A stretch of 64,000 bases of DNA from Rhodamnia argentea (Eukaryota; Streptophyta; Magnoliopsida; Myrtales; Myrtaceae): assembly GCF_020921035.1 (NCBI RefSeq), contig NC_063156.1, positions 28,506,283-28,570,282 of the forward strand. Reading direction: 5' to 3'. Below, piece by piece: positions 28,571 to 64,000 of the stretch. Each line of letters starts with the position of its first letter. The stretch's first letter is position 1. A model generated the notes under the pieces. The model worked only from the letters and a program-made list of their open reading frames with translations. It was not told the DNA's origin and ran no database searches. The position numbers and the translations under genes were made by a program.

Positions 28571-30101
28571 TTCAATTTCTCCATATGTTTTGTCACAACA
28601 TATGCATATTTTTCTAGTTCTTTATGTGTATTTCAATCTTTAGGTTTTTTTTTTTTATGTTTTTTCTTCAATTATTAACAAATTTTATTTAGTTAGTTGA
28701 CTTTTTAATGTGATAAAAAAAATCTCTCTGAGTAACATATTCTTATGAAGAGCTTAAAGTTGGTTAAATATTTCGAAATGCATATGAATATGTTTTAGTA
28801 ATATTGGTCGGGTCGCGAAACATAAAAATGGATAAATATGAGTTAAATGAGTCAATTTGGGTCGGAGCACTTTCTACCGGATCCAAACCCGACCCGACTC
28901 ACTTATTTAATCGGCCCAACACCGATCATTCGAGTTGTTTGTGCATGCATTTCCACGTCAGCAATTTAACGAGCATATTAGACTCCCGGTGGTAACATTT
29001 TGGGATTTTTTTGACATGAAAATTATTTTGGGATAAATATGATACGTGTGTACTAATTTGGGATTTTTTGCATGGAGTTTAATTTGAAATAAGTGTGGCA
29101 TGAGTGCATTGGTTTGGAATTTCTTATGGTATTAGCCTTTCATTTAAAAAGCACAGTTAATTATTTGCATTGTTTGGTTCAATTTATAAACCATTTAAGT
29201 ATTTTAAAGATATGAAAACGTCACACACACATACGTATATAGTGATATGATGAAGGTTCCGGCCGTTTTACACGAAAGAAGATTTGAAAAGCGCAAATAC
29301 CAACTTTAAGATACAAAAGTAATTCCAAATGAATTAACAACTCTCTTGTCGTAAAATAAAGATATTTTATTTCTCAGGTCGCGATTAACTAAGATGTATT
29401 ATTTTTCTTCGGCACATAAATAACAAAAAAATTCATGAATTTGAAGTCATTAGAATAGACGTGATGATTTATGAGTAGGAAGTTTCTCCAATTTTACTAA
29501 ATTGTCCGCAATAAAACCGACCAAGGTGGGAATAATTTCTCAAATTAGCACTTCGGTCTAAATGAAGTTCTTTCAGTTCTTCTAATCTTCAAGGTAGATT
29601 CTTTGGCGACGGTCTCTATAGTCCCTAACATAAGGACGAATCTGAAAGTCCACTCCATGCTAATCGATGCTCTGCAATTTTGCTCCTCGACAAATAGAGT
29701 ATTACTAACTCCTGTAGATGCAGACTGAATTCCTTTCAACACTAGCCATAAATGTAAATTTTCTGAAAATCTGTAGTAAAGCTACTATCCCTCACTCAGA
29801 AGAAACCTTAAGCTCTATAAGTAGGCCAAAATTCTTCATTTGTTTTTATCTAGTTCTCTTCATTAACTCCATTTCAATTAATCTGGGCAAAAAAAACGAT
29901 TTGAACTCGTCATTTTTTCGGCCAAGACATGTTTGCCAGGCAAATCGCTTGGAATTTTCGGTAAAAAGTAGAATTGAGGATCGAAGATGGTAGAGGTCTT
30001 TGATTATTTACAGCCCATTTAATTGCAGCATTGCAATAGGGCAGCATTATAATAGAGCTTCAATAACTATTATGAAGTTTGATTTAAGTAATGTAGTACT
30101 T

Positions 30102-30796
30102 ATGCTCCGTTTGTTTCGCGAAAGATGTGGCATTTCTGGAAAATATTTTCAAGAAAGTCGTTTTTCAGGAAAATGACGATATTTTCCGGTATTTGACTGA
30201 AATATGAAAAAGACTTGGAAAATGTTTTCCATCGTTTGGTATGAAAATTTTCCTCCATGTACTCCTTTTAATGATTTTTTTTTATTTTTTTTCATTTTTA
30301 TATTTTTTTAAAATCAAGTTTTTTAATTATTTATCTTTATCTTTTTTTTTTCTCTTTTCTTATTTTCTTATTTATTTTTTTCTTATCCTTTTGGTTTTGG
30401 GGCAAGGCCCGATTCTGCTAGATCCAGAGAGCTCAGGCCGAGCCTCGGGCGAGCGGTTGTGGCCGGTCGCCATTCGTTGACCTGGCCGACAATCGACAAA
30501 GAAAGAAAAGGAAAAGAAAAAAAAAGATAAAAATAATTAAAAAGTAAAAAAATTAAAAAAATTGTACTTATTTTTTTAAATTACAAAAATATAAATGTAG
30601 AGGAGTGAGCAACCGAAGATGAGGGAAGATGTTTTCCTCTTCTCAAAAAGAGGAAGACATTTTCCCCACTTTTGAAGGAATTTTTTCCATGGATGGAAAA
30701 TGTTTTTCTTAACTAGCTTATTTTCCGCAAATCACAAGTCGAAATATCCAGAAAATATTTTCCTGAAAGTTATTTTCCGCGAAATAAACGGAGCCT
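30102..30796. mobile_element. hAT-like MITE, about 695 bp
   Basis: The left end reads ATGCTCCGTTTGTTTCGCG and the right end, reverse complemented, AGGCTCCGTTTATTTCGCG. Both are followed by 'ggaaaatattttc'-rich arms. TAGTAC occurs directly outside both ends (30094-30099 and 30797-30802), consistent with an 8-bp target duplication with two mismatches. The inside is AT-rich with a GC-rich island at 30400-30490 and no transposase. Termini of this kind are typical of non-autonomous hAT elements. Confidence 0.65.
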
Positions 30797-32171
30797 TAGT
30801 ACACTGTTTTGTTTTTGGTTAACAATGTATAGTAAGGTAAAATAGGATCGAAATTTCCAAAACATGAAAAGTAGCTAACTACCGACTAGAATGTAGACAT
30901 TCAAGCTAATCGGTATTAGTTACAACTCCATATATCAAACCCGAGACATGATCTAGTGTACATAAATCATATTGGACTGGACATCGATTGACCACCATCA
31001 TCGAATGGAAGCATAAAATTTTAAATTAGGCTAAAAATGCACTAAAAATCAATTTTCTTTTTCCAAATTTTTCTCCTTTTTTTCTGATTTTTAAAACATT
31101 TTTATGAATTTTTAAAAATTAAAATTTTAAAAAATAAAACTGTATCAGGTTTTCGCTGTTCTGCGCTGAACTCAAAACGACACCGTGCGGTTGATCCTCA
31201 AAATGGTGCCATTCGCGGGGTTCAGAAAACGGCACCATTTCGCTGGCTTTGCACACTATCAGAATTGCCGTCTTTCGGTTCCAATGCCCATGAAGTTGAT
31301 ATGAGAACCGACCTGATTCGCCCAACCAACTCGGCTTGCGCCCGTAACCCAAGAACGACATCATGGCATCCCTTGCCCAAAACGATGTCGTCTCGTGGGT
31401 CTACAAAGAGGCCCAAGACATCGTCGTCTCGTTCCGGTACTTCATATCCATATGCGACCCAACTCCACTAACCGACCTAGCTCTGTCCGCCAAGGTCGTC
31501 ATTTTAACTAATATAAGTTGTTATCGATAATGAAAACATTATAAACTAGCTAATTATTTTAACTAATATGAGTTATCATTTTCAAGAGAATAGTTTTGGA
31601 ATCATTCAGTTTTTGAGAAACAAATGGAGACTTAGTACATGTTCGAGTTTAGATATGGACGATTCAAGGAAAAAACACAAAAAATTATCACGTGTCCAGA
31701 TAGCAGCATTCATTTATGTGGTGGGACAATAGTAAAACCTTTCCTTTTGTTTTTTCTCATGGCAAGTTTTCTGTACTCAAACAATCTTAAAGTGTTATTA
31801 TAAGAGTTTCATGTAACTCATGTTTGTCGAAACTTTAGTCGTAAATACCAAGAAAAAATATAGATTGAAAATGTTCGATTTATTCCTATATCGAATAGAC
31901 CGAAATGAAAGCTACTCAAGGGCCCTACAACGATACTTCTGCAAAATGACGATATAAAACACCAAAATCCAAAACCTGCCTCTAAAAACCAATGAACAAA
32001 AGAAGCTCATGCTGAAAAATAAATAAAACGAAAATACACACTCTCTCTATATGTAAACCCGACCAGCCATCCTCCCTTTCTCATTCTCATCCCGATTTCT
32101 TGCTTATTTTGGACCTCCGCCTTCGCAAGACAAAAGAGAAGAGGAAAGATTTTACAGGAAAAAAAGGGGAA
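30797..32171. other. intergenic, nothing firmly recognised
   Basis: AT-rich DNA with a more GC-balanced stretch at 31140-31500. A 55-codon frame starts at ATG 31363 (MASLAQNDVVSWVYK...) and ends at TAA 31530; it looks protein-like but matches no family I know. The last 150 bp form the probable promoter and leader of the GDU-like gene. Confidence 0.4.
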
Positions 32172-32479
32172 ATGGAAGCTGCAACTCCGGCTATGAGGAC
32201 GCCTATGCCGGCGGCTGCGGAAAGGTCGCTGTCGCTGTTGCATTCTCCATTACCTTACCTGCTTGGGAGCCTAGCGGCGTTGGTGACCCTCATAGCTTTC
32301 ACACTTGTCTTGCTTGCCTGTTCCTGCCGGAAGGTCCCCGAGTTACTCGGAAGGTAACGGCGACAGAGGAGACGGGCATTGAGGCCGGCGAGGATGATAA
32401 GAAAGAGGCGGCTTCTAAAGAGATGATACCCTTGATACTGGTGGGTCAAGTGAAGCCGACCTTCTTCTTCAAGCGGTGA
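32172..32479 (+). pseudogene. GLUTAMINE DUMPER-like gene, frame broken by a 20-bp segment
   Basis: GDU proteins are small single-pass plasma-membrane proteins that promote amino-acid export. The frame opens at ATG 32172 with MEAATPAMRTPM, then LHSPLPYLLGSLAALVTLI and FTLVLLACSC, matching the GDU block (W/L-HSP-PYLFGGLAA...LILACS). It then stops at TAA 32355-32357. A second frame continues with TATEETGIEAGEDDKKEAA and IPLILVGQVKPTFF to TGA 32477-32479, the place and pattern of the GDU VIMAG-type motif, here degenerate (LILVG). The two frames would join if the 20 bp at 32328-32347 were absent; those 20 bp are bounded by a direct repeat CGGAAGGT (32328 and 32348). Without them the frame would be 95 aa. 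Loss of function is likely, though a sequencing or allelic difference cannot be excluded. Confidence 0.7.
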
Positions 32480-32939
32480 AGGACTTTGGTGATTGCAATT
32501 ACATGCATTGCGTGGGTAAGGTGTAAGATTTTTCCTTTTTCTTTGCCTGTCTATGATCTTTTGCTTGATGAACTTGAATTTCAGATTACCGATCCACATT
32601 TTATTCCGGGTATCATTTTACATCTTTCTCTCGATTGTGCTCGCCTTATTAGGACCTACAATTATATCCGTTAAAGCGGTGGGTCGGCTCGGGATTATAA
32701 ATGGTCCGATTCAAATTGACTCATTAATCCATTTATGATCCATTTATGCGTAGTGCAAATTGCTTGACCTATACCCGATTGATATTACTAAAAATATTTA
32801 ATCAAATCTAAGGAAACTTATTTCTTATAAATCTATAAAAAGAATTACGTTACTAAATCAATGTTCACAATTTTTCTTCTTCGAAAACTCCCCTCGACCC
32901 CGACTTTCTCCATTTTTGAAGGCATTTGCGCGTTTCTCA

Positions 32940-33430
32940 TTTTCTTCGGATGACTCGTTTATGTGAGATGCACATATATTGCACGAGCATTGCACTAGCA
33001 CTACATGTCATGACCAATATATCCAAATTCAAGTTTAACCAAAACCAAATGATGCGAGGAGATTGGCCGGTGCGTGCGCGTACACATGGAGTGGAGGCAT
33101 TGGCCCAATAAAAGTTTCTCGAATAAAATAATTACAGATTGGATGGCACGGGGAGAGAGATTTGTTGAAGAGGAGGCGAAAGGGATGATAATAATTGTGG
33201 CGACCACGTGTCGATAGACGACGAGTACATAATTGCTCGTGCCCTGGTTTAAGGCAGCCTTGCAAGTGATGTCCATCTCAGCTAGTTCGAGTTGCAAGAA
33301 GACCATGAAAATGAACGACTTCCAGGCTAGCTTGCTCCAATCCCGTGAACTAGCTTGCTCTTCTAATATGTATTGGGAATGAAACTGAACCTTTAAATCC
33401 AAGGCACTTATTTGAAAAGTTGAAAACATT
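32940..33430 (-). pseudogene. WAT1/nodulin MtN21-like (EamA transporter) fragment, copy B
   Basis: On the minus strand a frame reads FIFMVFLQLELAEMDITCKA, ALNQGTSNYVLVVYRHVVAT and IIIIPFA. This is the first membrane block of plant WAT1-related transporters of the DMT/EamA fold (usual form: LQFGYAGMDIISKAALN...YVLVVYRH). Just after PFA the frame slips: the next frame reads RLLFNKSLSP, as expected for the family. The C-terminal membrane segments are absent. The 3' part (about 32950-33050) shares words such as 'gtgcaatatatgtgcat' and 'ccaagtttaacc'-like sequence with copy A, so the two are duplicates. Confidence 0.75.
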
Positions 33431-33511
33431 AATTAGCTATCTCATGACTGATGTTGTCCGTTCCCTAGCCCGCTGCGGCCACCCAGCTCTGCCTAGCCCG
33501 CTACAGCCACC

Positions 33512-35241
33512 GGGTTTTTTTCCAATTTAATTTTTTTAAAATAAATATTTACAAAATTATTTTTTAAAAATAAGTATTTACCGATTTGGGCCTTGCTCGG
33601 AGGGTGAGTTGTTGAGCGAGGCCCGCTCGGCAGCCCAACCGTCGAGCAAACCCCGGTGGGCCCGATCAGGGCTGCTCGGCGGCTCAGCTGCCGAGCTGGG
33701 CATTTTTTTTTTTAATTTCATTTTTTAAGTGTTTTAATTATTTATATTTATAATATTTAGTTTATTTCGTATTTTTTTAACATGTTTATATTTATTTTAT
33801 TTATAATTTTTTTCTTGTGAAGCTTATCTTTATAACATAATTAGCAATAATTAATGTAAAAATTTATTAAGATCTATAATTAATAAATAATGTTGTAATT
33901 ATGTAATTAATTTAAAATATTCATAAAATAAAATTAGTAAGATAAATGAAAAAAAATGAGATTTTCATGATATATTCATCTATTGAATGACAGTAAATTC
34001 AATCGGAAGACGAAATGGTGATGTGTCAAGAACCGGCGGATTGGGTCGACGACATCGGATCGGGCTCAAATTTGGTCGGTTGAAGCGAAACGGCGTTCTA
34101 ATCAATATTCATTGCCGTTGGCGGGGATGAACGATGGATTTTTGTGATTCGAGATTGTCTAGATGGGTTTTCTTATTTTTTTAGTATTTTCGGGAAACCG
34201 CAATAAAAGAGTTAAAAACCGCATGGAAAGATTAAAAACCACACCGAAAGAGTGGAAACGAGTAAAGAAAGGGCAAAACTTTGGAAGAGCATATCTCATC
34301 GCTCGGGCGTCCGTTTGAGACAAATTTTTTTTTTATTTCACGTAATTTTTCGAGACGAATCCATTCCAAACCGCCATAGGCGGTTTGCCCGACTTTTTCC
34401 CCAAAAAACTCCGTTTTCCTTCTCAATTTTGCATTTTCTCCCTCCGGTGCTACTTCTCTATATCGAATGAACCCTCTTTTCCTTCTCTCCTCTTTCAATC
34501 TTTCCACACCGGACTCATTCAATCACGTCTTTTGTAGTGGGAAAGGGGTCTAGGTAGTTTTTCATGTCCAAATTAAAGAGGAAATAGGGAAAGGAGGGTT
34601 CATTCGATATAGAGAAGTGGCACCGGAGGGAGAAAATGCAAAATTGAGAAGGAAAACGGAGTTTTTTGGGGAAAAAGTCGGGCAAAACCGCCTATGGCGG
34701 TTTGGAATGGATTCGTCTCAAAAAATTACGTGAAATAAAAAAAAAATTCGTCTCAAACGGACGCCCGAGCGATGAGATATGCTCTTCCAAAGTTTTGCCC
34801 TTTCTTTACTCGTTTCCACTCTTTCACCGCGGTTTTTAATCTTTCCATGCGGTTTTTAACTCTTTTGCTGCGGTTTCCCTTCTATCTATTACTGCGGTTT
34901 CCAACATATTCCTGCGGCTATATTACATTATATCACAACATTATTTATTAATTATATATCTTAATAAATATTTATATTAATTATTGCTAATAATGTTATA
35001 AATATAAGCTTCACAAGAAAAAAAATTATAAATAAAATAAATATTCTAAGTATCAATAATTAAAAAAAAAACGAAAAAAAAGGAATCGGGCCGGATTTCC
35101 ACCTTGTTCGGCAGTGGGGTTGCCGAGCGGGCCTCGCTCGGCAATCCACCCGCCGAGCGAGGCCCAAATCAATAAATACTTATTTTTAAAAAATAATTTT
35201 GTAAATATTTATTTTAAAAAAATTATTTTGGAAAAAAACCC
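33512..35241. mobile_element. 1.73-kb foldback element (Mutator-like) with long inverted arms
   Basis: The whole stretch folds on itself. The ends are GGGTTTTTTTCC (33512) and its complement ending at 35241. The flanking 9-mers are acagccacc (33503-33511) and gcagccacc (35242-35250), an 8/9 match that fits a 9-bp Mutator-type target duplication. The outer arms carry GC-rich 'gctcggc' words and then AT-rich DNA. The inner arms (about 34192-34495 against 34577-34879) match closely for roughly 300 bp around an 80-bp loop. The left side has about 280 bp (about 33905-34190) against about 40 bp on the right, so the arms are unequal there. No transposase is encoded. It sits between the two WAT1-like copies. 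Confidence 0.8.
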
Positions 35242-35298
35242 GCAGCCACCCAGCTCCGTTGGCAGTGCTATTTGCTCATCGATCGATGAAGATGACTT

Positions 35299-36991
35299 TT
35301 AGCCTTTGCTTTTGCCCCAAACAACAAGGTACAAACTAGCCACAGGATTGCACCAATAATCCTAATTTAACGGAATTAATTAGCATAATATAATTTTTAA
35401 AATTTGATAGTTAGCATGAACCGGGCAGAAATTTGAGTAGGAGAATAAGTATCTTCCCAAGGTAAGCTGCTCAGCCAACATGAAGGTGCTCAAGACAACC
35501 ACAATCACCATGCCTAGAGGATTGAAGGCCGTGACGAAAACTGGTCCTCTTTCTTTCATGACCACACCTTAGACGCAGTAGGCCACACTAGCACACTGTT
35601 CCCTACATTTACCAATTAAGGCATAACTACAAATAAACTCTTAAGATTAACAAAAAAATTAAAACTGCTTGGAATTTGTTACTTTCTCAAATTAAGAAGT
35701 GGGTTAACCACAACATAACCTTATGATTCTCACATTATGCTGCTCTGTCGCCAAAATTTCTGTTCCCACTCATGAAAATGAAAATAAATGAAGCTTAATT
35801 CACAAGATAATAGTGGTAGGCATTATAATGAAGGATAACCGATGACTAAGAAGTGATAATAATAGTTCTCCCTTAAAATTTCCTAAGTCATTTGTAAGGG
35901 AAAATCGGTTAAATAATCGTGAAGTTGCGAGTGCTTACGCTATAGACAGACGCAAGTAATTTGGTGTTCCAATGTATGGACCAAACGGTAGCACCTCCTC
36001 TTTCCATGACTAGAGCTACCATGGCATCCTCAATGGCATTCAAGTTATTGTGCTATTGTTGCTTATGATTAGTCTTTAAGAAAAAAGTATTAGGTCTAAC
36101 GTGCGAAGATCGACTGCATTAAATAATTACTTGGCGAATTGTGAAGCAAGCCGAGCAGAACATTCCAACCGTGATCATGAGAGAACCCTTGATGGAATCG
36201 AATTAACATGCATCCCTGGCCTTGGTCCACCATGTAGTGCTCGTGCAATACACGTGCAATATATGTGCATGTCACATAAACGGGTCATCGATAGCCGTAA
36301 AAGCCAATCATATATCTTTGTCAAGCATTGTTGCACCCTAATTGAAAGGCCATAAAGGTGGATAAATCCAAAAGCACCAACTTGGTCATACATTTGGTTA
36401 CTTTGCTTGTAAAGGCTGAAGGGATTTTTCCGACTGGTAATCACATCAGATAACTTGAGGAATATTGCACCGGACCAGTTGTAGTCCATGTGATTTTCTC
36501 CATTAAGGATAATGATGAACAATTTCTTGTGAAACCCAAAAGAAATTTTCATGAAAACCTTATGATCATCTTAATTGTTGCCACTGTCCGTATGCACAAA
36601 ACAAAATGAATTGCCCAAATTGCACCGGAAGTAACATGTCCTTCTCCTAGGGCAGTCCATCATTAATCTCATACTTACTCTAGTAAGCCCAGCGCCATCA
36701 GTGCGATGAAGATGCGGACTGTCATCTTTGGCCTTGTTGTCCTAAAGAAAAAAAGTCACATGATCAACATATCTAAAGCCAAGTTTAACCGGAAATTGTA
36801 TGTAGACAAGGAGACATACTTGTCAAAGAAAATGGCGAAAGGGATGATGACCATTGTGGCGAGCCGACGAGCACATAATTGCTCATGCCCTCGTTTAAAG
36901 CCGCCTTGCAGATGATGTCCATCCTGGCCAGCCCGAGTTGCAAAAACGCCACCAAAATGAGAGGCTTCACCTTCTGAATCCGGGCCATCAA
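35299..36991 (-). pseudogene. WAT1/nodulin MtN21-like transporter pseudogene, copy A
   Basis: Family blocks appear in gene order on the minus strand. About 36991-36790: KPLILVAFLQLGLARMDIIC, KAALNEGMSNYVLV, then a frame slip, with FAIFFDKY in another frame. About 36063-35935: LNAIEDAMVALVMERGGATV, HWNTKLLASVYS, followed by a GTAAGC donor. About 35605-35449: SVAYCV, stop, GVVMKERGPVFVTAFNPLGM, AEQLTLG. About 35345-35299: SLYLVVWGKSKG and TAA. The TAA at 35571-35569 replaces the Gln of the usual YYVQG motif. Several middle exons are not recognisable. With a frameshift and a nonsense codon it cannot make a normal transporter. WAT1-like proteins are membrane carriers (the founder moves auxin from the vacuole). 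Confidence 0.8.
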
Positions 36992-37440
36992 CGTCTGAAT
37001 CTAGGCCATTGCTATCGCTCAAATCGTCCTACCTTCGCTCTTCTAATAGGTGTTGGAGTATGGAATGAAACTTGAGTTCAAAGCTCTCTCCGTGATGTGA
37101 AGACGAAGATGGGAGGAAGAGAGATTCTGTCACTCTCCCTCCAGCAACGGAGCGGAGGAGAGAGAGCGCGACGGTCGGTGAGAGAGAAGACAAGGCAGTA
37201 ATTTTACTAGCGGGACCACCTTGCCACGTGGCCATTATTGAGTGGAGTATCATATGAATGACGTGGAAAGCAATCGCTACCTCATGTTTTCTCACGAGGA
37301 GTAAAAATTAGTAGAAAACATTGCGCAACACCGGCTCACCTACGCTTTTGATAAATTTGGGGTCTCATTGATTTTTACTCTGATTATATCTTGATGGGCT
37401 TTGGCAAGTACAGCTTGCTTTGCATGCCGTGAAGGAAACA

Positions 37441-37520
37441 TGCGGTACATTCTTTTCGAGTTTGAGCCGTAAAGGGAACTTACAGTGCATTCTTTTCGAG
37501 TTTGAGCCTTAAAAAAAAAT
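37441..37520 (+). repeat. two copies of a 40-bp tandem unit
   Basis: 'cattcttttcgagtttgagc' occurs at 37448 and again 40 bp later at 37488, each followed by a similar c(g/t)taaa tail. Confidence 0.7.
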
Positions 37521-37605
37521 CCGATCGAATTTAAATAGGTTTTCAAGTTTGAATGCATTCCTTATTTGAGTGATTTACCAATTTAGATATTTAGTTATTA
37601 CCAGG

Positions 37606-37705
37606 CTCGATGGACGTGGGCCTGACCTTGGCCCGAACCTCTAGACTCGAGTTCGCTCGATGGACGTGGGCCTGACCTTGGCCCGAACCTCTAGACTCGG
37701 GTTCG
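37606..37705 (+). repeat. two copies of a 50-bp tandem unit
   Basis: The 50-bp unit beginning 'ctcgatggacgtgggcctga' is present at 37606-37655 and 37656-37705. The copies differ at a single base near the end (actcga versus actcgg), so the duplication is recent. Confidence 0.95.
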
Positions 37706-40090
37706 CTGTAAAGGACCCTAAATGAGCATTGGGGTTTTCATGCCCAAGCGTAGAGTTTTTAATAAACAAAAGAACTAGAACAATCAAGAAATTTGATGTC
37801 TCATCAATTACAGAGGACAAAAAAACCAAAGAATTGTGAGTAGTCCTCCATTTATTGCTTCTAAACTTCTCAGCTCCTATTATATTTTACTCAGTACATC
37901 AAGATATTTGGTCCCAGTGTTTTATCAGATCAAACTCGATTCCCAACAATTGGAGATATATTGCAGAGTTCGTCCGTCAATGATCGATGACGTATTGAAG
38001 ATAAAACCGACTTTAGTTTCGCCCCGCTTGAAGAAATAAGCCAATTAAAAACTTCGAGCACAGCATAGTACTTACTCTTTAAATCGATATCGGGTTCTCT
38101 CTTTATAGTAGCCCAAGCTGGATCCATCCAGCTCACAACAGAAGAGTTTGCTCTTGTTTCGCAGCATCGGCTTGCCATGCAACAAGAACCAAAGGTGCAT
38201 AGAGACAGCAGCAGCATTCTTTTCTTAGCTTGTTTCCCCTAAAAGAATGTCAAGGTAATCTCCATATCACTATGAAGCTCAAAGTAAAGAGACAATTACA
38301 TAATGCTGGTGCTTGAATAACATGTTCTTCCTGATATTTCTTGCAACAGATATTGGACAGATGGAGAGCTAGAACTGCATACAGCCATACAGAGAGGGTT
38401 CAATCAATTTATTAAGGAACAGAATATAAAGACAGGAAAAGTTTAACACTAGGAAAGGCCAAGCCACACTAAAAAACCTCTGCTGTTTTAGCAAGGCTTA
38501 CTAAGTAAGATCTCAACTTGGTGACTACTTTTCATTTCTCTGGAGAAGAAGCAAGCTGTTAAGTAACCTGATAATGGAATCGACAAACTCATTGCGAGTT
38601 ACATGGAGTACAACAAAATTTCCAAATGCTGCTCACATTTTCACTCCCTGTAAGATTTGGTTCATCGTTCTTCGAGCATGTGTGTTCAATGATACAAACC
38701 GACGGAGAAACTCTTAGAAAGGCGGAGCCTTGTGGCCATGGTAAACTCAACTGGACTTCTTGGATTACGACTATGTATCGTGAAGCTAAGAGAAAAACCT
38801 CCGGCAACTCAGTTTTACCCAAAATCTGATGAACCTTTTAGACCCTTGTTCTGAGAAGCCGTAGCAAGATAATTGGATATATCCTACTATCAATATTCAA
38901 GACCCTACGCATCTCCATAGAGGGTGACAACCATCTCAGGCTCGCGACGTCAGGATCCTTGATCTTGAACTATTGATTCCGCTGATGCAAAAGCCGATTG
39001 CTCATTGAAAACTCAAAATCGGATCTAACAAGGTCCTCTAACAGGGAGCACGCCGGAAAAGCATTGTTCCTAACTCCCAGTCCTCAACACTACAGGAGAA
39101 TGTCGCCACGATAAACGGAACTTCTGCAGGAGAGCGCACTGATCTGAAGGGCCAGAGCTAGTCGGCGAAACCCTCGTACTCATCATCTTAATAGGACTTT
39201 CCTTTGAATAGAAGACAGTAGTAATGTACAACTAGAACACTGGAAAAGTTGAGTGTCGAGTTGTAGAGATCAACATTGATTAGAAGAAACCGGCAAGTCC
39301 TACTGTTATAAAGACCGACTGAACCGTGATTCTTTTTGTCAGCTAAGTTGATCTTTTTTTTTTTTTCTTGGCTCAGTAGCTAAGTTGATCTTCAAGTGTT
39401 GACATTGCTTCATTTTCACTTCATCGACTAAAACTGGCTTTCTGGTCAACTAGGTTTATCGAACGGTAGCTCTCGTCGTCGATCTATCGGATCTCTGTCG
39501 ATTTGACTATCGATGATAACACTTGACATGTTTTTTTGGTCGATACTGACGCATGTGCAATTTAGCAAGCATAAGTCCCACGAAAAAGGTCGATTGCCAC
39601 TTCCGATGCCGACACGACCGGATCGATCAAAATGACTAACTCTTCTTGAGAAAAAAAAAAAAGTACAAAGTATCTAATTGAATAAATTTGGATAATTATA
39701 TAATTGAAAAAGAAGAAAATTATTTTTGAGCCTGCCTCAGACGGCCATCGGCAGTTGGGCATCTCCCGCACGGGAAGTTGTCTCCGAGTGCGCCAAAAGT
39801 CACTGCCTTTCACCTTCTCCCTCCCTCGTCCTCTTCCTCTCTGCAATCGTCTCCTTGTCCTATTCCCAGATTCTTCCTCCCAATTCCAAGCCCTCTTTTG
39901 ATCCCTCGATACCTTCTGCTGTCTCGGAACACATGTTGATGGCGATGACTCTCCTCGTCCTGTAGCTCATCATGACCCTCGCCGGCACGCCTCGCGTTGT
40001 TCTGGGCCCACCCTCCTCCTGGACTGTACCGAGCGCCTGTGCAGTTATATAGCGGTCGCTGCGGCGGCGAAGTCGGAGGCCTGGTGTGAG
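37706..40090. other. intergenic, no supported gene
   Basis: Several short frames exist (for example 38589-38822 on the minus strand) but none carries a recognisable motif or a credible splice context. The last 350 bp before 40091 should hold the promoter and leader of the UNC93-like gene. Confidence 0.4.
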
Positions 40091-51985: not shown

Positions 51986-54900
51986 TCAAGCACATGATTC
52001 CTCGTTCGCGCCATTGATGATCTTGCAATTTTTCTCCGGAGCCTCGTTGCTTTGGACCGCCCTCTGTTGCTGCACCACAAGGATGGAGGATATGATTCCC
52101 TCGTCCGATCGAGCGAAAATGCTTCCTATGATCCCCAGTTCGTCGTGCTCAATCTCGTGGCCGGCCAGCTTTGCCTCCATCCACCATGGGAACTTACCCT
52201 TCCCTACAACAACCAAATCGTATTCCCGGCTTCGGCCTATTGCCGTCAGCGCTTCCATGAGGTGGTTGTTCACGGCCTTCGCCGAGTAGTTTGCCGAGCC
52301 CTGATAAGTCCTGAATTCCTCCACCCCCGCCTCGTCCATTTCCTGTTCGAGAGAATTTACTTCTGATTGTTTACTCTTTATTTCATCTACCCCTGGCTCC
52401 GCAGGGATGCATCGTCTCCCCTTGAACAGATTTGGTGAGGAAGAGCTTGTGACGCTCACAAGATCCTTCCCGGCTTCATCCATGAACCTTATGATGCTAA
52501 CCTTGACCGTAGAATTGTTTGCCATCCTTCGCACCAGAGCCAGAGCCTCGCGATCGTCAGGTCCGCCAAAGAACACGATGCAAATCCGTCTTTCCACAGT
52601 GACTTCCTGCTCTTCGCATTGCTTGAACTTGTCGCCAAGCCCGCGATCTAGGAGTACCGCCACTGTGCACGGCGCGCTTTCGAGCACTTTCCTGTTGACC
52701 TCTCTCCATTCGTAGCTCACGCTCTCTTCTTCCTCCTCGTTCTCTCCTCTCCATTGCTTGTGAAACGGCAAGATGATCATTTCCGCCCGCTTCTCTTGCG
52801 CCACGTGGTTGATGTCCTCGTGCATGGTGGACAAGACCGAGATGGCCGTCGAGTGGTGGATAGTCAGGCGACTCGCTTGGCTGTACGCCTGAAGGGCCAC
52901 CGCCACCTGGTCATGCATGGCGCCGTGACAAAAGCGGCTGACGAGGGGAAGCCCGTTCTTCCGAGCTCTCCTGACCATGATGATGGATGATGGACGGCTG
53001 GTGAGCTTGACGAGCCGCACCACGTGGAGCCGGAGAGGGGGACTTAGACTAGTCCTCGTGAACTCCACGAGTTTCATTAGCGACGGTATGTTTCCCGGTC
53101 CGTGTACGCAAGCGAGTACTCGGAGCTCGTCTTCCGAAAGGTGTGGTTGTCTTCTCAATCGGCGAATGACCAGAGGAGGGATGATTTGCCTTGGTTTATA
53201 GATGGCCATGACCGTAGGAGTCGTCATGAAGGTGGTGAATATCGCCATGAGGACTAGAATCGCGAAAACCTCGTCGTTCAGGACCTGTTTGTTGACAAGG
53301 AAAGCAAACGAATCAATCTCTTCATACACTTCAAAATATCAACTTGTAGCTTCTAGTCTGACTCAACAAACCAATTAGCGTATATAAATTGTTTTTTCGG
53401 AAAATTACTTAGTTCAACGCTAAATGGTGTTTTAGTAGTAAAACGACTTAATCCTCATCATTACTTGAGCATTTAACTTTCATCTTTTTGGAAAACAAAG
53501 AGAGAGAATTTGGTAAGACATTCTTCACCGACTAAAAGGAACAATTCTTTCGATGTAGTGCTCCTTTCAAAAGGGTAGAATAGAACACATGCAATCTCAT
53601 TTTATTCCAAAAGCGACCACCACGGATTCTATTTCAATCATAAACAAAACCTAATCTCCTCAATAATCCCTAAAAAGAGGAAAACATCTCGAACATAACC
53701 ACAACATAAAGCATAAAGATAGAAAGTAGAAAAATTGAATCGACACATCATCCCGCACTGCTTGTGCGGGTCCATACAAGTTCTATATAGCCTCGAAGAA
53801 GCCGTATAGATTATTATATTCCAAACTAAAACTCTAGGAAAAGATGAAAACGAGCACTCATAACGAAATTTTTAATGTCATGATTAATCTCCCACTATCA
53901 TAAAAAAAGAATCATATCACGAAACCCTATTTGGCTTAATTTAGTCCGATTCACTGGGTAAGTGCTGGCTTTGTTGGAGGTGGAAGTCAAAAAAGGCACG
54001 TGGCCGCCACAATGATGCATCCTCTCCCCACGTCTATTCTTCTTTCTGGAGCATATTGAAACTTGGTTTCGGCGGGGACATTGGCGAATCATTTGATCTA
54101 CACCACCTCCAACAAAAGCTAAACCAGACCCTAATCACATTTTGATTAACCCTCTGCACTTTTTGACAAGCGTGTTGTTCGAAGAGTTCTCCTTGTCCTA
54201 CCCAAAGATTAGGACAGCTCTTGACACGGCTTATAGATAGGTGAAACGTGCTTGTCATTGAGTAAAATATCTGTTAAGTGGGTGTTGCCCATTCGGTGCC
54301 ACGAACCAATATGATCATGACTTCTGTGAAGCTCACATATCGAAGTGGCCATCGTTTTTGTGCTCATTAAATATTGGAATTGGTTACATCTTCACAGGTG
54401 TGGCGACTAATTGACTAGCACTTTCTTGTGCACTGGAGGGTTAACAAGAAGGGAGGTCGGTAATCTTGTGGATTGCCACTGAAAAGATAAGTATAAACCC
54501 ATTTATGCACACAAGTTTCTGGAAGCCTGAATACCCTGCCATGAGACAACCAGAAATTTAGGATCATCATTTACTTTATGAGCATACCAAGGATGTGGAT
54601 TTTAGTTACATAGTTTGTACGCTAACTTAAGCATGAAGTTTCTCAGTTTTCCCCTTTTCTTGTTGGGAAAAAAACAACCTATGATTTACTGCTGATTGTC
54701 TAAATAGGGATCGGCGAACAGCAACTTAAAAACCCTAGTTACCATCACGACGGACTCTTTCTATACATCAATTTGCGGAAAGGTTTGCTTTGACATATTC
54801 ATGGGGTCCGGAATTTGCTTACGGCGGCGGGCCTTTTCGCCATCGAAAGAGAAGTTCTCGTGCATTATGTGTTCCAACCAAGGCTTATACATCTAGATTT

Positions 54901-57255: not shown

Positions 57256-57803
57256 AAACTCATTTCATTGGTAGCACTTCAATTCTAAACCTTTCAATTG
57301 GACCAATTTAGTCCTAAAGCTTTACACATTTTTTTCAATGGGGTCCAATCGGCCAATTTTGGCTGAAAATCGTGACATGTACGCCAACCATCTTACGTGG
57401 TATGGCCAACACCAACATGGATAATTTTTTAATAATTATTTATGTTTTATAATTTTTTTGTTCTTTCTCTTTTTTTTTCTTTCTTTCAGTTTGGCTGGCA
57501 AGGGCTTGTAAGCCCTTGCCTAGTGGCTGGCAATAGTCTCCAACAACCGTCAGGTCCGTCACCCAACAAAATGAAAGGAAAAAAATAGAACAAATAGAAT
57601 TAAAAAAATTTGAATTTTTAAGAAGAAAATTGTAAAACTTGTTCACTTGAGCGCCTCGAGATGTAGGACCACTAGCATCCACGTTAGCAATTTTTCGCCA
57701 AAACTACTCAAATGAAATCAATTGGCACTAATATGAAAAGATTTAGGACTAATTAATCTAATTAAAAGATTTAGAACTGAATTGGTACCAATGCAATGAG
57801 TTT
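57256..57803. repeat. complete member of a dispersed hairpin repeat family, about 548 bp
   Basis: The left end 'aaactcatttcattgg' is mirrored by 'ccaatgcaatgagttt' at the right end. The arms carry 'cctttcaattggacc' and 'gctgaaaatcgtgacatgta' against 'gatttaggactaatt' and 'cgttagcaatttttcgcc'. The centre has 'ggcaagggcttgtaagcccttgcc', itself a perfect palindrome. No coding capacity is visible; related copies lie at 60838-61554, 28100-28570 and 14745-15050. Confidence 0.7.
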
Positions 57804-57815
57804 ATGACTTTTTGG

Positions 57816-58738
57816 AAGGTCTAATATCTAAAAAAAACTCAAACTATAGCCTTTGTCCTAGTTATATCCAAAACTTTTTTGTTATTTCATAAAAAACCCG
57901 CAACTTTAGCCTTTGTCCCAATTATATCCAAATATTTTTTTTTGTCTTATAAAAAACCCACAACTTTTACTTTTGTCCCAATTCTATCGGCATGATACCC
58001 AAAAAATCCTCAACTTTAACATCTGTCCCAATTTTATCCAAAAGTTTTTTTTGTCTCGTAAAGAACTTTCAACTTTTACTTATATCTCAATTCTACCACC
58101 GCTAGTCTTCCATCCATAATCACCATTAGTTAATCTTACGTAGCTCGTATTTTCTCGTCTAACTTATCAATAAATCTTTGAAATTCAAAAACATCGGGTT
58201 TCGAGAACGACCATATTTGAGGTCATTCGTCCAAATGATCAAATCTCCACGTTTAGCCATTATTTGGGCTATTGAGTGCCAGCAAGAATCTGAAACACGT
58301 AGTCTTAAGTGGCTCTATATCTCCGGACAATATGTAGGGGAAGCAGACAACATAAGAGAAGCTGTGGGATTTTCCATATCATCTTTGTTGAGGTGTAATT
58401 TATTAACGATGCGAAAATATCATGTAGAATTAAGTAACGGTGATTATGAATGGAAGGTTAATGGTGGTAGAATTGATACAAAAGTAAAAGCTGGGAGTTT
58501 TTTATGAAACAAAAAAAGTTTTGGATATAATTAGGACATATGATAAAGTTAGGGGTTTCTTTAGGTGTTAGGTTGGTAGAATAGGGGTAAAAGCTAAAGT
58601 TAAGGGTTTTTTTAGTATCATGCAAGTAAAATTGGGACAAAAGTAAAAGTTGAGGGTTTTTTATGAGACAAAAAAAAGTTTTGGATATAATTGGGATAAA
58701 GGTTAAAATTTGAGATTTTTTTTGGGTATTGGGCCCTT
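57816..58738. mobile_element. MITE-like inverted-repeat element with internal tandem units
   Basis: The left end 'aaggtctaatatctaaaaaa' is mirrored at the right by 'ttttttgggtattgggccctt'-like sequence. Each arm is built of 2-4 short tandem units of the form 'aaaaacc-caactttta-cttttgtcccaatt-tatcc', so the arms pair in several registers. About 58143-58440 is a unique spacer. No transposase was found and no target duplication could be set with confidence. Confidence 0.65.
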
Positions 58739-59446
58739 ATTGGATACTTAGGTTTGTTTATTTTGAAGAAAATAATTGATTTGAAAAATATTTTTCTAAA
58801 AAAAATTACCCGTATCACTTAAAATAATAAGGCAATAAATAATACTTTCATTGTGAATAAAACTTTATGTCTAAATATTTTTATGGACTATACATATATT
58901 TTTTATTCATTCATTTTTATAAGGGATATAAGAGATCGTATTTAAAAGAAATATTTTCAAATCACTTATTTTTCGCAAAACAAATACAACCTTACTTTCT
59001 CCCTAGATTACGGACTTTGTGGCTACCTTCGTTCTTCCATTCTTCGTCCGGATCGCATGTGAGAGGGCATATGTCAAGTCCCTCAAATATGTGGTTATAA
59101 GTTTATGTCGACCATGTGATGTCCTTCGTCTGTTAGCTAAGATTTTAGTCAAGAATAAACATATTACTAGGAAAAGAAAACAGAAAGTCCATGGGGTCAA
59201 TGTTGTCTGGACTTGGAAAAAAAATTGTTGTCCGGAAATTCTCGACCAAAAAAAAAAAAAAGAAATTGCTAGCTTGACAATCTAACAATACTGTAAATTA
59301 TTTATGATCACACGATCTTCCAATTAATGAGTGTTTTATGCAAAATACAGGATGATGATGTGTGAATCTACGATTGAAATTATATTGACCCTAACAGTAC
59401 TGTAAGGGAAAACAAAATATTGATTGGACACAAACTGCATTGGACA

Positions 59447-60470
59447 TGCATTATTATTAACTGGGTTAATAATATGAAGAACCTCAAATTCGTATACATG
59501 TGATAAATTTACTCCAAATTAATTTTTTAACCACCAAAAATCTCAAATTAGTACACTTATGACAAAGTAACCTTTCGTTACTATTAGGGAAGCATTTCCC
59601 AAAATAAAATGTTGTCTAAATACGAATTGCATTGGACATGCATTATTATTAATTGGGTTAATAATATGAAGAACCTCAAATTGGTACACCTGTGATAAAT
59701 TATCTTGAATTAATTTTTTAACCACCAAAAATCTAAAACTGGTACACTTGTGATAAATATACCCTTCGTTAGATACCGTTAAATTTTACTATCAAATTAC
59801 TGATTTGGATGACACGTGATAGTTGACGTGTATATCAATTTGAAATTTTTACTCTTCATTTGTTAGCTGCATACTAATTTTGGATTTTTCGTAGTATAAA
59901 CTCAATTTAATAGAGACTAACGGAGCACAAAATTTGTCACAGATATATCGGTTTGAGATTTTTGATGGTCAAAAAATTAGTTTGGATTAAATTTATCACA
60001 GGTATATCGACTTATAATTTTTCGTGATATTAAACCCTCATATTTATCCTTTTTTTCATGCATTGTTATTAATATTGTCAATAATATGAAGAACCTCAAA
60101 TTAGTGCACCTGTGATAAATTTATCCAGAATCAATTTTTTAATCACCAAAAATTTCAAACTGGTACACTTGTGATAAATTTATCCTTCGTTAGATGCCGT
60201 TAAATTTTACCATCAAATTGCTAATTTGGATGACGTGCGGTGGTTACCAAGTATATCAATTTGGAATTTTTACCCTTCATTTGTCACCCACATACTAATT
60301 TTGGACTTTTCGGGGTATAAACTCAATTAAATGGAAACTAACCGAGCACAAAATTTGTCACAAATGTATCAATTTGAGATTTTTAATGGTAAGAAAATTA
60401 GTTTAGATTGAATTTATCACAGGTATACCTATCTAGAATTTTTCGTGACATTAAACCTTCATAGTTATCC
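59447..60470 (+). repeat. 421-bp tandem duplication plus one partial copy
   Basis: 'ataatatgaagaacctcaaa' begins matching blocks near 59447 (partial, about 140 bp of similarity), 59638 and 60059. The last two are full copies offset by 421 bp, each ending 'attaaacc(c/t)tcata(t/g)ttatcc'. Within each full copy 'tacacctgtgataaatt' is answered by 'aatttatcacaggtata', so each unit is itself a hairpin. Confidence 0.85.
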
Positions 60471-60837
60471 TTTTTTTTTTTGCCGGAGGGGGTTGGTGGG
60501 GGGCCAAAATTGAGCATGGTCATTGGAGGACGTGACCGTGGACAGAACCCAAAGCGATTTAGTTTTCATGCGTGCGAAATTGAAGATTCCATCCTTATCG
60601 CTGCGAATTGGGAATCGGAGATGCGATACCATTACAGAAAAAGAGGAGGAAGACACGTCTTCTCCAAATAAGAAAGTGTGCCTAAAGCTGGAATCGCATC
60701 GGCCTCATCACTTGTAGTTGTAGGGGAACAGATTCCTGTGAGTGGCTATGGCCCCCGACCCCTGTACCTTGAAATCCCATTGACGGTATTAAGAAATTGC
60801 GCATTCACGAGACTCCTAGAAAATTTTCTAAAAAATT

Positions 60838-63497: not shown

Positions 63498-64000
63498 TCA
63501 TACTATATCATCGATCTCTTTCGACTTGTTATGCTCGCTGCTCTCCACTTTAGACACGGGAGTATCCTCCCCATGGCCCATTTCATGCTGCTGGATCACT
63601 AGAACCGAACACGCGATGCCGTGGCTTGACGACGCCAGCACGTCCCCGACAGGACCTAGCTCCGGGTGCTCGGCCGACTGGTCCGCCAAGTCCGCCACCA
63701 TAGCCGAAGGGAACCGCCCCTTGCCCACGACTACAAGGTCATAATCTTTGCTCCGGCCGATTGCTAGGACTTGCTCGACCACGTTGCCGGCAACTTTCTC
63801 TATGTAGCCAGCCGTGCCGTCCCACCGCTCTTGGAATTCTGCGACCGCGGCCTCGTCCAGCTCCTGGATCATTAGCACGAAGAAACGGGCTTTAATTAGT
63901 CGATACTAGGAGAGTTAAGTATGCCGAATCATCAGCTCGCGTGTATAGATTTATTGGAAAAATTTGCAAGATAAAAGAAGGTACCTTTTCCTTTTGTCGA
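63498..64000 (-). CDS. 3' end of a second CHX20-like exchanger (partial)
   Basis: The last exon is 63863-63498 (121 aa and TAA). It reads ELDEAAVAEFQERWDG, AIGRSKDYDLVVVGKGRFP, AEHPELGPVGDVLASS, CSVLVIQQHEMGHGEDTPVS, matching the C-terminal cytosolic tail of CHX20. It fits my memory of the Arabidopsis tail (AEHPELGPIGDVLASS, VVQQH) better than does the complete gene at 51986-56702. Upstream the frame is closed by a TAG, but a good acceptor (TCCAG before 63863) and a donor (AAAAG, GTACC at 63984) define a 121-bp intron; 64000-63985 then ends ...RQKEK in phase, just as CHX20 has Lys/Glu before ELDE. The rest of the gene lies to the right. The same position in the complete copy has no intron. 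Confidence 0.85.

Follow-up and report, generated by a model that had tools for sequence, protein, structure and literature searches.

The window, by which we mean the whole 64,000-bp stretch of Rhodamnia argentea DNA analyzed here (C7:28506283-28570282), carries two decayed copies of a WAT1-like gene, and between their remains lies a 1,730-bp element that folds back on itself (Table 1). Searched as protein, the joined exon pieces of copy B find WAT1-related proteins with a best E value of 4.4e-30, and 30 of the 105 candidates reach E <=0.001. Against this assignment, the Pfam EamA domain was reached with the joined pieces alone and at an E value of 0.039, too weak for the cut-off; the single pieces retrieved no match in Pfam and PDB searches. 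The last exon of copy B contains a stop and, by our reading, a frame shift. Its minus-strand flank translates as YLVVWGKSKG*KSSSSIDEQIALPTELGG right up to the element, and the homologues P0124 and P0125 align as far as the tail that the element interrupts, which places the element in the C-terminal coding tail of copy B. The original prediction had put it between two decayed members of a transporter family, a position that we confirm and can narrow to the interior of this last exon. On the far side of the element is the first exon of copy A, which shares the strand of copy B.

Several other features were noticed in the window. A 59-bp inverted repeat (32949-33007 and 36231-36289, 91.5% identity), with an 11-bp ATTGCACGAGC tandem, flanks the element together with the adjoining gene sequence and is perhaps a small separate element. 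A tandem array occupies 37605-37707 (50-bp unit, 2.1 copies, 98% matches), and the region 57256-60477 is dense in direct and inverted repeats (57823-58134 against 58730-58429 at 76%; tandem units 59637-60056 and 60057-60477 at 86%) and may be a further decayed foldback or an array of repeats. Further genes include a CHX-type cation/H+ antiporter region at 51989-53338 (Pfam CHX17 domains) and a second partial CHX-type copy at 63501-63905 (48% over 104 aa). A protein search with the CHX sequence retrieved plant proteins, the nearest ones with a name being about 50% identical.

Table 1. Positions in the window of the foldback element, its modules and the flanking WAT1-like exons.
Feature	Position	Strand	Evidence
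First exon (decayed), WAT1-like copy A	33152..33322	-	DNA match to copy B first exon; translation
28-bp tandem repeat at target, second unit split by the element	33464..33511		Joined flanks restore two units, 25/28 agreement
Left 9-bp target site duplication ACAGCCACC	33503..33511		8/9 match to 35242-35250
Left outer arm (T module, U-type lineage)	33512..33907	+	Inverted match to 34922-35241; U-side group in tree of 60 arms
U module of 284 bp, confined to the left in the window's copy	33908..34191	+	On both arms of L028, L030, L035
Putative chimera join GGGA, common to U-type and J-type sequence	34192..34195	+	Same place in 21/21 loci with U-I junction
Left inner arm (I module)	34192..34496	+	291/305 against reverse complement of 34574-34879
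Loop, 77 bp	34497..34573	+	Between inner arms; matches in 8 other loci
Right inner arm (I module)	34574..34879	-	Pairs with left inner arm
J module, 42 bp, extra AAACCGCAG-type repeats, links I to right outer arm	34880..34921	-	J junctions on both sides in symmetric L019, L022
Right outer arm (T module, J-type lineage)	34922..35241	-	J clade, support 100/99
Right 9-bp target site duplication GCAGCCACC	35242..35250		8/9 match to left
Decayed last exon, WAT1-like copy B, C-terminal tail interrupted by the element	35242..35360	-	Translation; homologues P0124, P0125
Exon with MKERGPVFVTAFNPL, WAT1-like copy B	35452..35565	-	Translation and homologues
First exon, WAT1-like copy B	36810..36968	-	73% DNA match to 33152-33322; protein pieces

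Mirror structure and insertion site

Self-alignment of 33001-35700 yielded two nested anti-diagonals, one for the inner and one for the outer pair of arms, with minus-strand scores of 894 bits (inner, palindromic) and 246 bits (outer) against at most 34.6 bits in 30 first-order Markov shuffles of the stretch. The stretch thus mirrors itself, as the original prediction had stated. Judged from the alignment coordinates, 1327 of the 1730 bp of the element lie inside the two arm pairs. The inner arms are 95% identical. The outer arms (33511-33907 against 35242-34922) form the weaker half of the mirror, as they are gapped (288/400 positions identical, 82 gap positions; 272/319 ungapped positions in a global alignment) and belong to two different lineages, described below; at 396 and 320 bp they are nevertheless long terminal inverted repeats. 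Within the arms, a 20-bp unit is repeated in tandem in 2.9 copies at 34195-34253 and 34818-34876. The element ends exactly at 33512 (GGGTTTTTTTCC) and 35241 (GGAAAAAAACCC), and it shares the terminus GGGTTTTTTTCCAA with its family. These ends, the 8-of-9 match between the flanking 9-mers and a left-only segment of about 280 bp had all been given correctly beforehand; the right-only segment of 42 bp had not been mentioned.

The inner part has a predicted folding energy of -548.5 kcal/mol (z -51.5; 20 shuffles, mean -184.7), which, together with the identity of the inner arms, bears out the proposed capacity for a hairpin of roughly 300 bp. A search of 30000-40000 against Rfam returned no match at gathering scores, and the one inner-arm frame that was searched as protein (34648-34836) found no homologue.

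Removal of the element together with one duplication restores the 28-bp tandem repeat of the target, so that the window itself holds the empty site. Because of this restored repeat and the 9-bp duplication, we read the locus as plain transposition into one existing gene copy, and the earlier suggestion that the element may have taken part in duplicating or silencing the transporter genes is not supported.

A dispersed family with nine-base target duplications

With the window's chimeric element as query, a search of the plant's own genome (346.7 Mb, 74 contigs) returned 761 first-look candidates of a dispersed family, the best 40 of which were scored. From the matches listed, 40 places were grouped and all 40 were examined, the window's copy being L001; since the query is itself a chimera, chimeras are over-represented in this sample. 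With strict ends and no fitting, 24 of the 40 loci were bounded by the terminal motif alone, present once per end, and genomic copies with other ends, the outcome that the original prediction had named as speaking against it, did not appear. The flanking 9-mers of these 24 copies agreed at 9/9 positions in 12, at 8/9 in five and at fewer in seven; six of the seven recover 8-9/9 with a one-base shift of one end, a procedure that lets the duplication partly guide the choice of ends, and L034 stays at 7/9. Over the lengths from 1 to 12 compared in the strict copies, flank identity peaks at 0.81 for length 9 and exceeds 0.43 at no other length, and when right flanks were swapped, a mean of 0.70 of the 24 (maximum 5) reached 8/9, chance self-pairs included. 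In all, 33 copies were bounded, and seven of the 40 loci (L007, L018, L020, L022, L023, L026 and L027) either could not be given a boundary at each end or were left out of this set.

The combination of nine-base duplications and long inverted ends is the hallmark of the Mutator superfamily. As 17 of the 24 strict copies have flanking 9-mers that agree at eight or nine positions, we assign the family to the non-autonomous Mutator-like (MULE) foldback elements. Duplications of 9 bp are also stated for MuTAnT (PMC4486113) and Tm1 (PMC3169594). Target bases are mixed in the strict copies. L009 and L010 (G000:C1:25036003 and C1:25559434, 0.5 Mb apart) have an identical imperfect target duplication and are for that reason probably one insertion that was duplicated with its flanks in a segmental event.

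The position between two related gene copies could also suggest an inverted duplication that arose locally at the WAT1 cluster, without transposition. However, the same ends, modules and 9-bp duplications recur on many contigs, and the empty site restores the tandem repeat. The dispersed family refutes a local origin, to which we assign next to no probability.

With regard to the transposase, the MULE domain PF10551 is abundant in the plant's own genome, where all 150 of those scored (the best 150 of 474 candidates) pass the cut-off; none of these domains was tied to the ends of our family. A U-type search, inspected by eye, showed no two end arms separated by several kb among the matches listed (best 40 of 770). 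Since a transposase-bearing copy between these arms was not found, the assignment of the transposase rests on the 9-bp duplication and the long arms. A CACTA reading based on TTTTGTAGTG in the loop (34531-34540) was dropped in view of the 9-bp duplications and GGGTTTTTTTCC ends of the family.

Modules and symmetric relatives

We named the modules T (outer arm), U (the 284-bp segment), I (inner arm), lp (loop) and J (the 42-bp link), in which terms the window's copy has the layout T-U-I-lp-I-J-T. Two symmetric types are found in the same family. The J-type, T-J-I-centre-I-J-T, is represented by L019 and L022, and the U-type, T-U-centre-U-T, by L028, L030 and L035, with 217 of the 284 bp of U on one side of L030. 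L019 and L035 match themselves nearly end to end, and the centre of L028 and L035, about 160 bp, matches neither I nor the loop. L019 (G000:C7:28345079-28346428), almost fully symmetric with a self-match over 4-1352 of its 1357 bp, shares the contig of the window's copy, at a distance of about 193 kb. All four junctions of the window's layout (T-U, U-I, I-J and J-T) occur in 18 of the 40 loci, in three of which (L008-L010) the outer arm next to J is U-like.

The extra 280 bp or so on the left had been taken for a possible acquired segment. Its one-sidedness holds for the window's copy; its acquisition does not, because the sister elements L028, L030 and L035 carry U on both arms. Capture of a host gene fragment on the left side, a Pack-MULE feature, would likewise be less probable: U, the larger one-sided segment, is part of an arm of a sister element type. 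Elsewhere in the genome, pieces of U-type elements form a tandem run with a spacing of about 0.7 kb (G000:C4:14261313-14264074), and three similar U-type copies at G000:C3:18052174, 18139167 and 18241119, spaced by about 87 and 102 kb, are perhaps a segmental duplication array.

Two arm lineages within one element

We placed 60 outer arms from the 33 bounded copies in a tree. With bootstrap values that are not fully settled, 34 U-side arms fell on one side of a branch (support 82/95) and 24 of 26 J-side arms formed one clade (support 100/99), and none of 500 label shuffles was equally clustered. The left arm of the window's copy falls in the U-side group and its right arm in the J-side clade. 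Two J-side arms, those of L037 and L038, sit beside the U side instead, and L008-L010 have U-like outer arms at both ends; these exceptions indicate that exchange has continued.

The junctions give the same picture, in that U-type sequence reads C-GGGA-TTTA, J-type sequence A-GGGA-AACC and the chimera C-GGGA-AACC. Judged from its arms and this junction, the window's element is a chimera of two terminal lineages joined at a shared GGGA. A U-I junction is present in 21 of the 40 loci, and its position does not vary among them. GGGA is unchanged at the join in 15 of them and slightly changed in six (L007, L020, L021, L024, L025 and L033), the join of L025 being without GGG; L006, L007, L012 and L024 are missing one or two of the 20-bp repeat units just inside the join.

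That the inner foldback (34192-34879) had instead jumped into an outer MULE would agree with the two separate anti-diagonals and with an identity of 95% in the inner pair and less in the outer. Such a nested insertion is nevertheless very unlikely, as the inner borders show no target duplication (AGTATTTTC on the left, TTCTATCTA on the right), the J-type copies L019 and L022 have J between I and the outer arm at either end, and the U-I border does not move among the loci that have it.

One U-side and one J-side arm were found in 19 of the 33 bounded copies, and 14 of these 19 carry the U-I join. If the ends are allowed to shift by up to 2 bases, 13 of the 14 show target duplications of 8-9/9, no two of which share a sequence; strict ends could bound 13 copies, and 8 of these reach 8-9/9 unshifted. 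As copies with the same join have different target duplications, the chimera itself has transposed as a unit, and the U-I chimera would most likely have formed once. A second join, which connects I position 284 with U position 123, is common to L029, L031, L032 and L040; each has its own 9/9 duplication, obtained with strict ends in three copies and after a one-base shift in L029.

Inner arms within and between copies

Sixteen copies have both inner arms, whose identity to each other ranges from 0.858 to 0.957; in 15 of these copies the partner arm is not the nearest, an inner arm from a different copy being closer. The two inner arms of the window's copy group together (support 98/97). Over the 16 copies, 13 rare variants occur in both inner arms of the same copy (0.81 per copy), compared to 0.20 per pair over 240 arm pairs taken across copies. 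These counts give a weak hint of exchange between the arms of a copy. Arm homogenisation was considered as a claim in its own right and was not retained, the evidence being too weak.

Such copying bears on the order of events, as the chimera could be ancestral and the symmetric U-type and J-type elements could have arisen when one of its arms overwrote the other. The excess of shared rare variants within copies and the grouping of the window's own inner arms point weakly in that direction. In contrast, the centre of L028 and L035 is unlike I and the loop, the outer arms fall into two well separated lineages, and the partner arm is almost never the closest relative of an inner arm. As such, we consider an ancestral chimera unlikely and favor a chimera derived from the two symmetric types.

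The predicted hairpin and possible silencing

According to the fold prediction, a transcript across the inner arms would be double-stranded, and when the left inner arm is cut into its 285 windows of 21 nt, 147 recur unchanged in the other arm. The original prediction had proposed such a transcript as a natural source of siRNAs, an idea that is physically plausible. In maize, Mu killer is an inverted repeat of MULE sequence able to give hairpin RNA, and MuDR-silencing individuals are reported to have had short antisense transcripts, with flanking read-through seen in those that failed to silence (PMC3440606).

The window's element could be a locus of this kind, an inverted repeat retained because its double-stranded RNA silences related transposons. 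Its hairpin is predicted to be long and nearly perfect, insertion in an exon could permit read-through, and sequence of both lineages is present in one element. Nevertheless, it is one among many similar copies and not a unique locus, its host gene is decayed, and flanking read-through accompanied failed silencing in the maize case (PMC3440606), all of which makes a retained silencing locus decidedly improbable. Mu killer also differs in that it is one derived locus whose silencing effect is known, whereas the elements studied here form a dispersed family.

A broader scenario can be drawn, in which one MULE transposase pairs two lineages of end arms, foldbacks with two parents out-amplify those parents, and the transcript of any copy feeds siRNAs against both, so that the chimera would be a self-spreading silencer of two transposon lineages. 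We regard this as a long shot.

Discussion

Our preferred reading, to which we give a probability of roughly 0.85, is that 33512-35241 is a small, non-coding and non-autonomous Mutator-like foldback transposon of a chimeric U-type/J-type subtype, inserted in a WAT1-like exon. By analogy with the superfamily, the element would be mobilized in trans by a MULE transposase that binds its long end arms, excises it and inserts it with a 9-bp duplication. The left half (outer arm and U) derives from a U-type foldback element, and the right half with the central hairpin from a J-type element, the hairpin of about 300 bp being the inner-arm pair of that J-type parent. The halves may have been joined at the shared GGGA by template switching or gap repair. 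Breakpoints of animal Pack-TIR elements often show short microhomology, and template switching has been proposed for them (PMC8277862). The chimera then amplified as a unit, and one copy inserted into the C-terminal tail exon of the WAT1-like gene.

Foldback MULEs are already known, including FARE, MuTAnT and Tm1, and the unusual part here is an amplifying chimera of two lineages. MuTAnT of Medicago truncatula is likewise a MULE with long, modular fold-back end repeats and makes target duplications of 9 nt at sites other than perfect TA runs; it differs in targeting TA microsatellites, whereas the targets of our family are mixed, and in that the 292-bp element described has almost identical arms, whereas the outer arms here are of different lineages (PMC4486113). 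FARE of Arabidopsis, which we liken by description only, is a plant foldback element with long palindromic ends that is classed with the MULEs (PMC4486113, PMC3169594). Tm1, a Mutator/Foldback element of root-knot nematodes, shares composite end repeats of variable length, 9-bp duplications and mostly non-coding copies, and differs in having asymmetric 7-bp terminal motifs and a transposase-encoding copy, neither of which we saw here (PMC3169594). MULEs with multiple long TIRs resemble our family in being mostly non-autonomous, in their rearranged arms and in that some amplify, but their extra arms duplicate a similar TIR, whereas here two arm lineages meet in one element (PMC3310237).

The nearest known case in these sources is that of the chimeric Galileo copies of Drosophila mojavensis, in which end arms of different subfamilies are combined in one element; Galileo belongs to the P superfamily, and its chimeras are described as being without matching target duplications (PMC3573991). 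No report of amplifying MULE chimeras of two arm lineages was found in the literature searched, mostly papers open without subscription.

For gene annotation, the foldback and the interrupted WAT1-like gene are both explained by one ordinary event. For the family, the junctions and target duplications are evidence that a MULE with ends of two lineages can transpose and spread. Since two different joins were each amplified, the family would offer a natural test of how far a MULE transposase tolerates unlike ends, and it may equally serve as a natural test of hairpin-bearing copies as a source of family-wide siRNAs.
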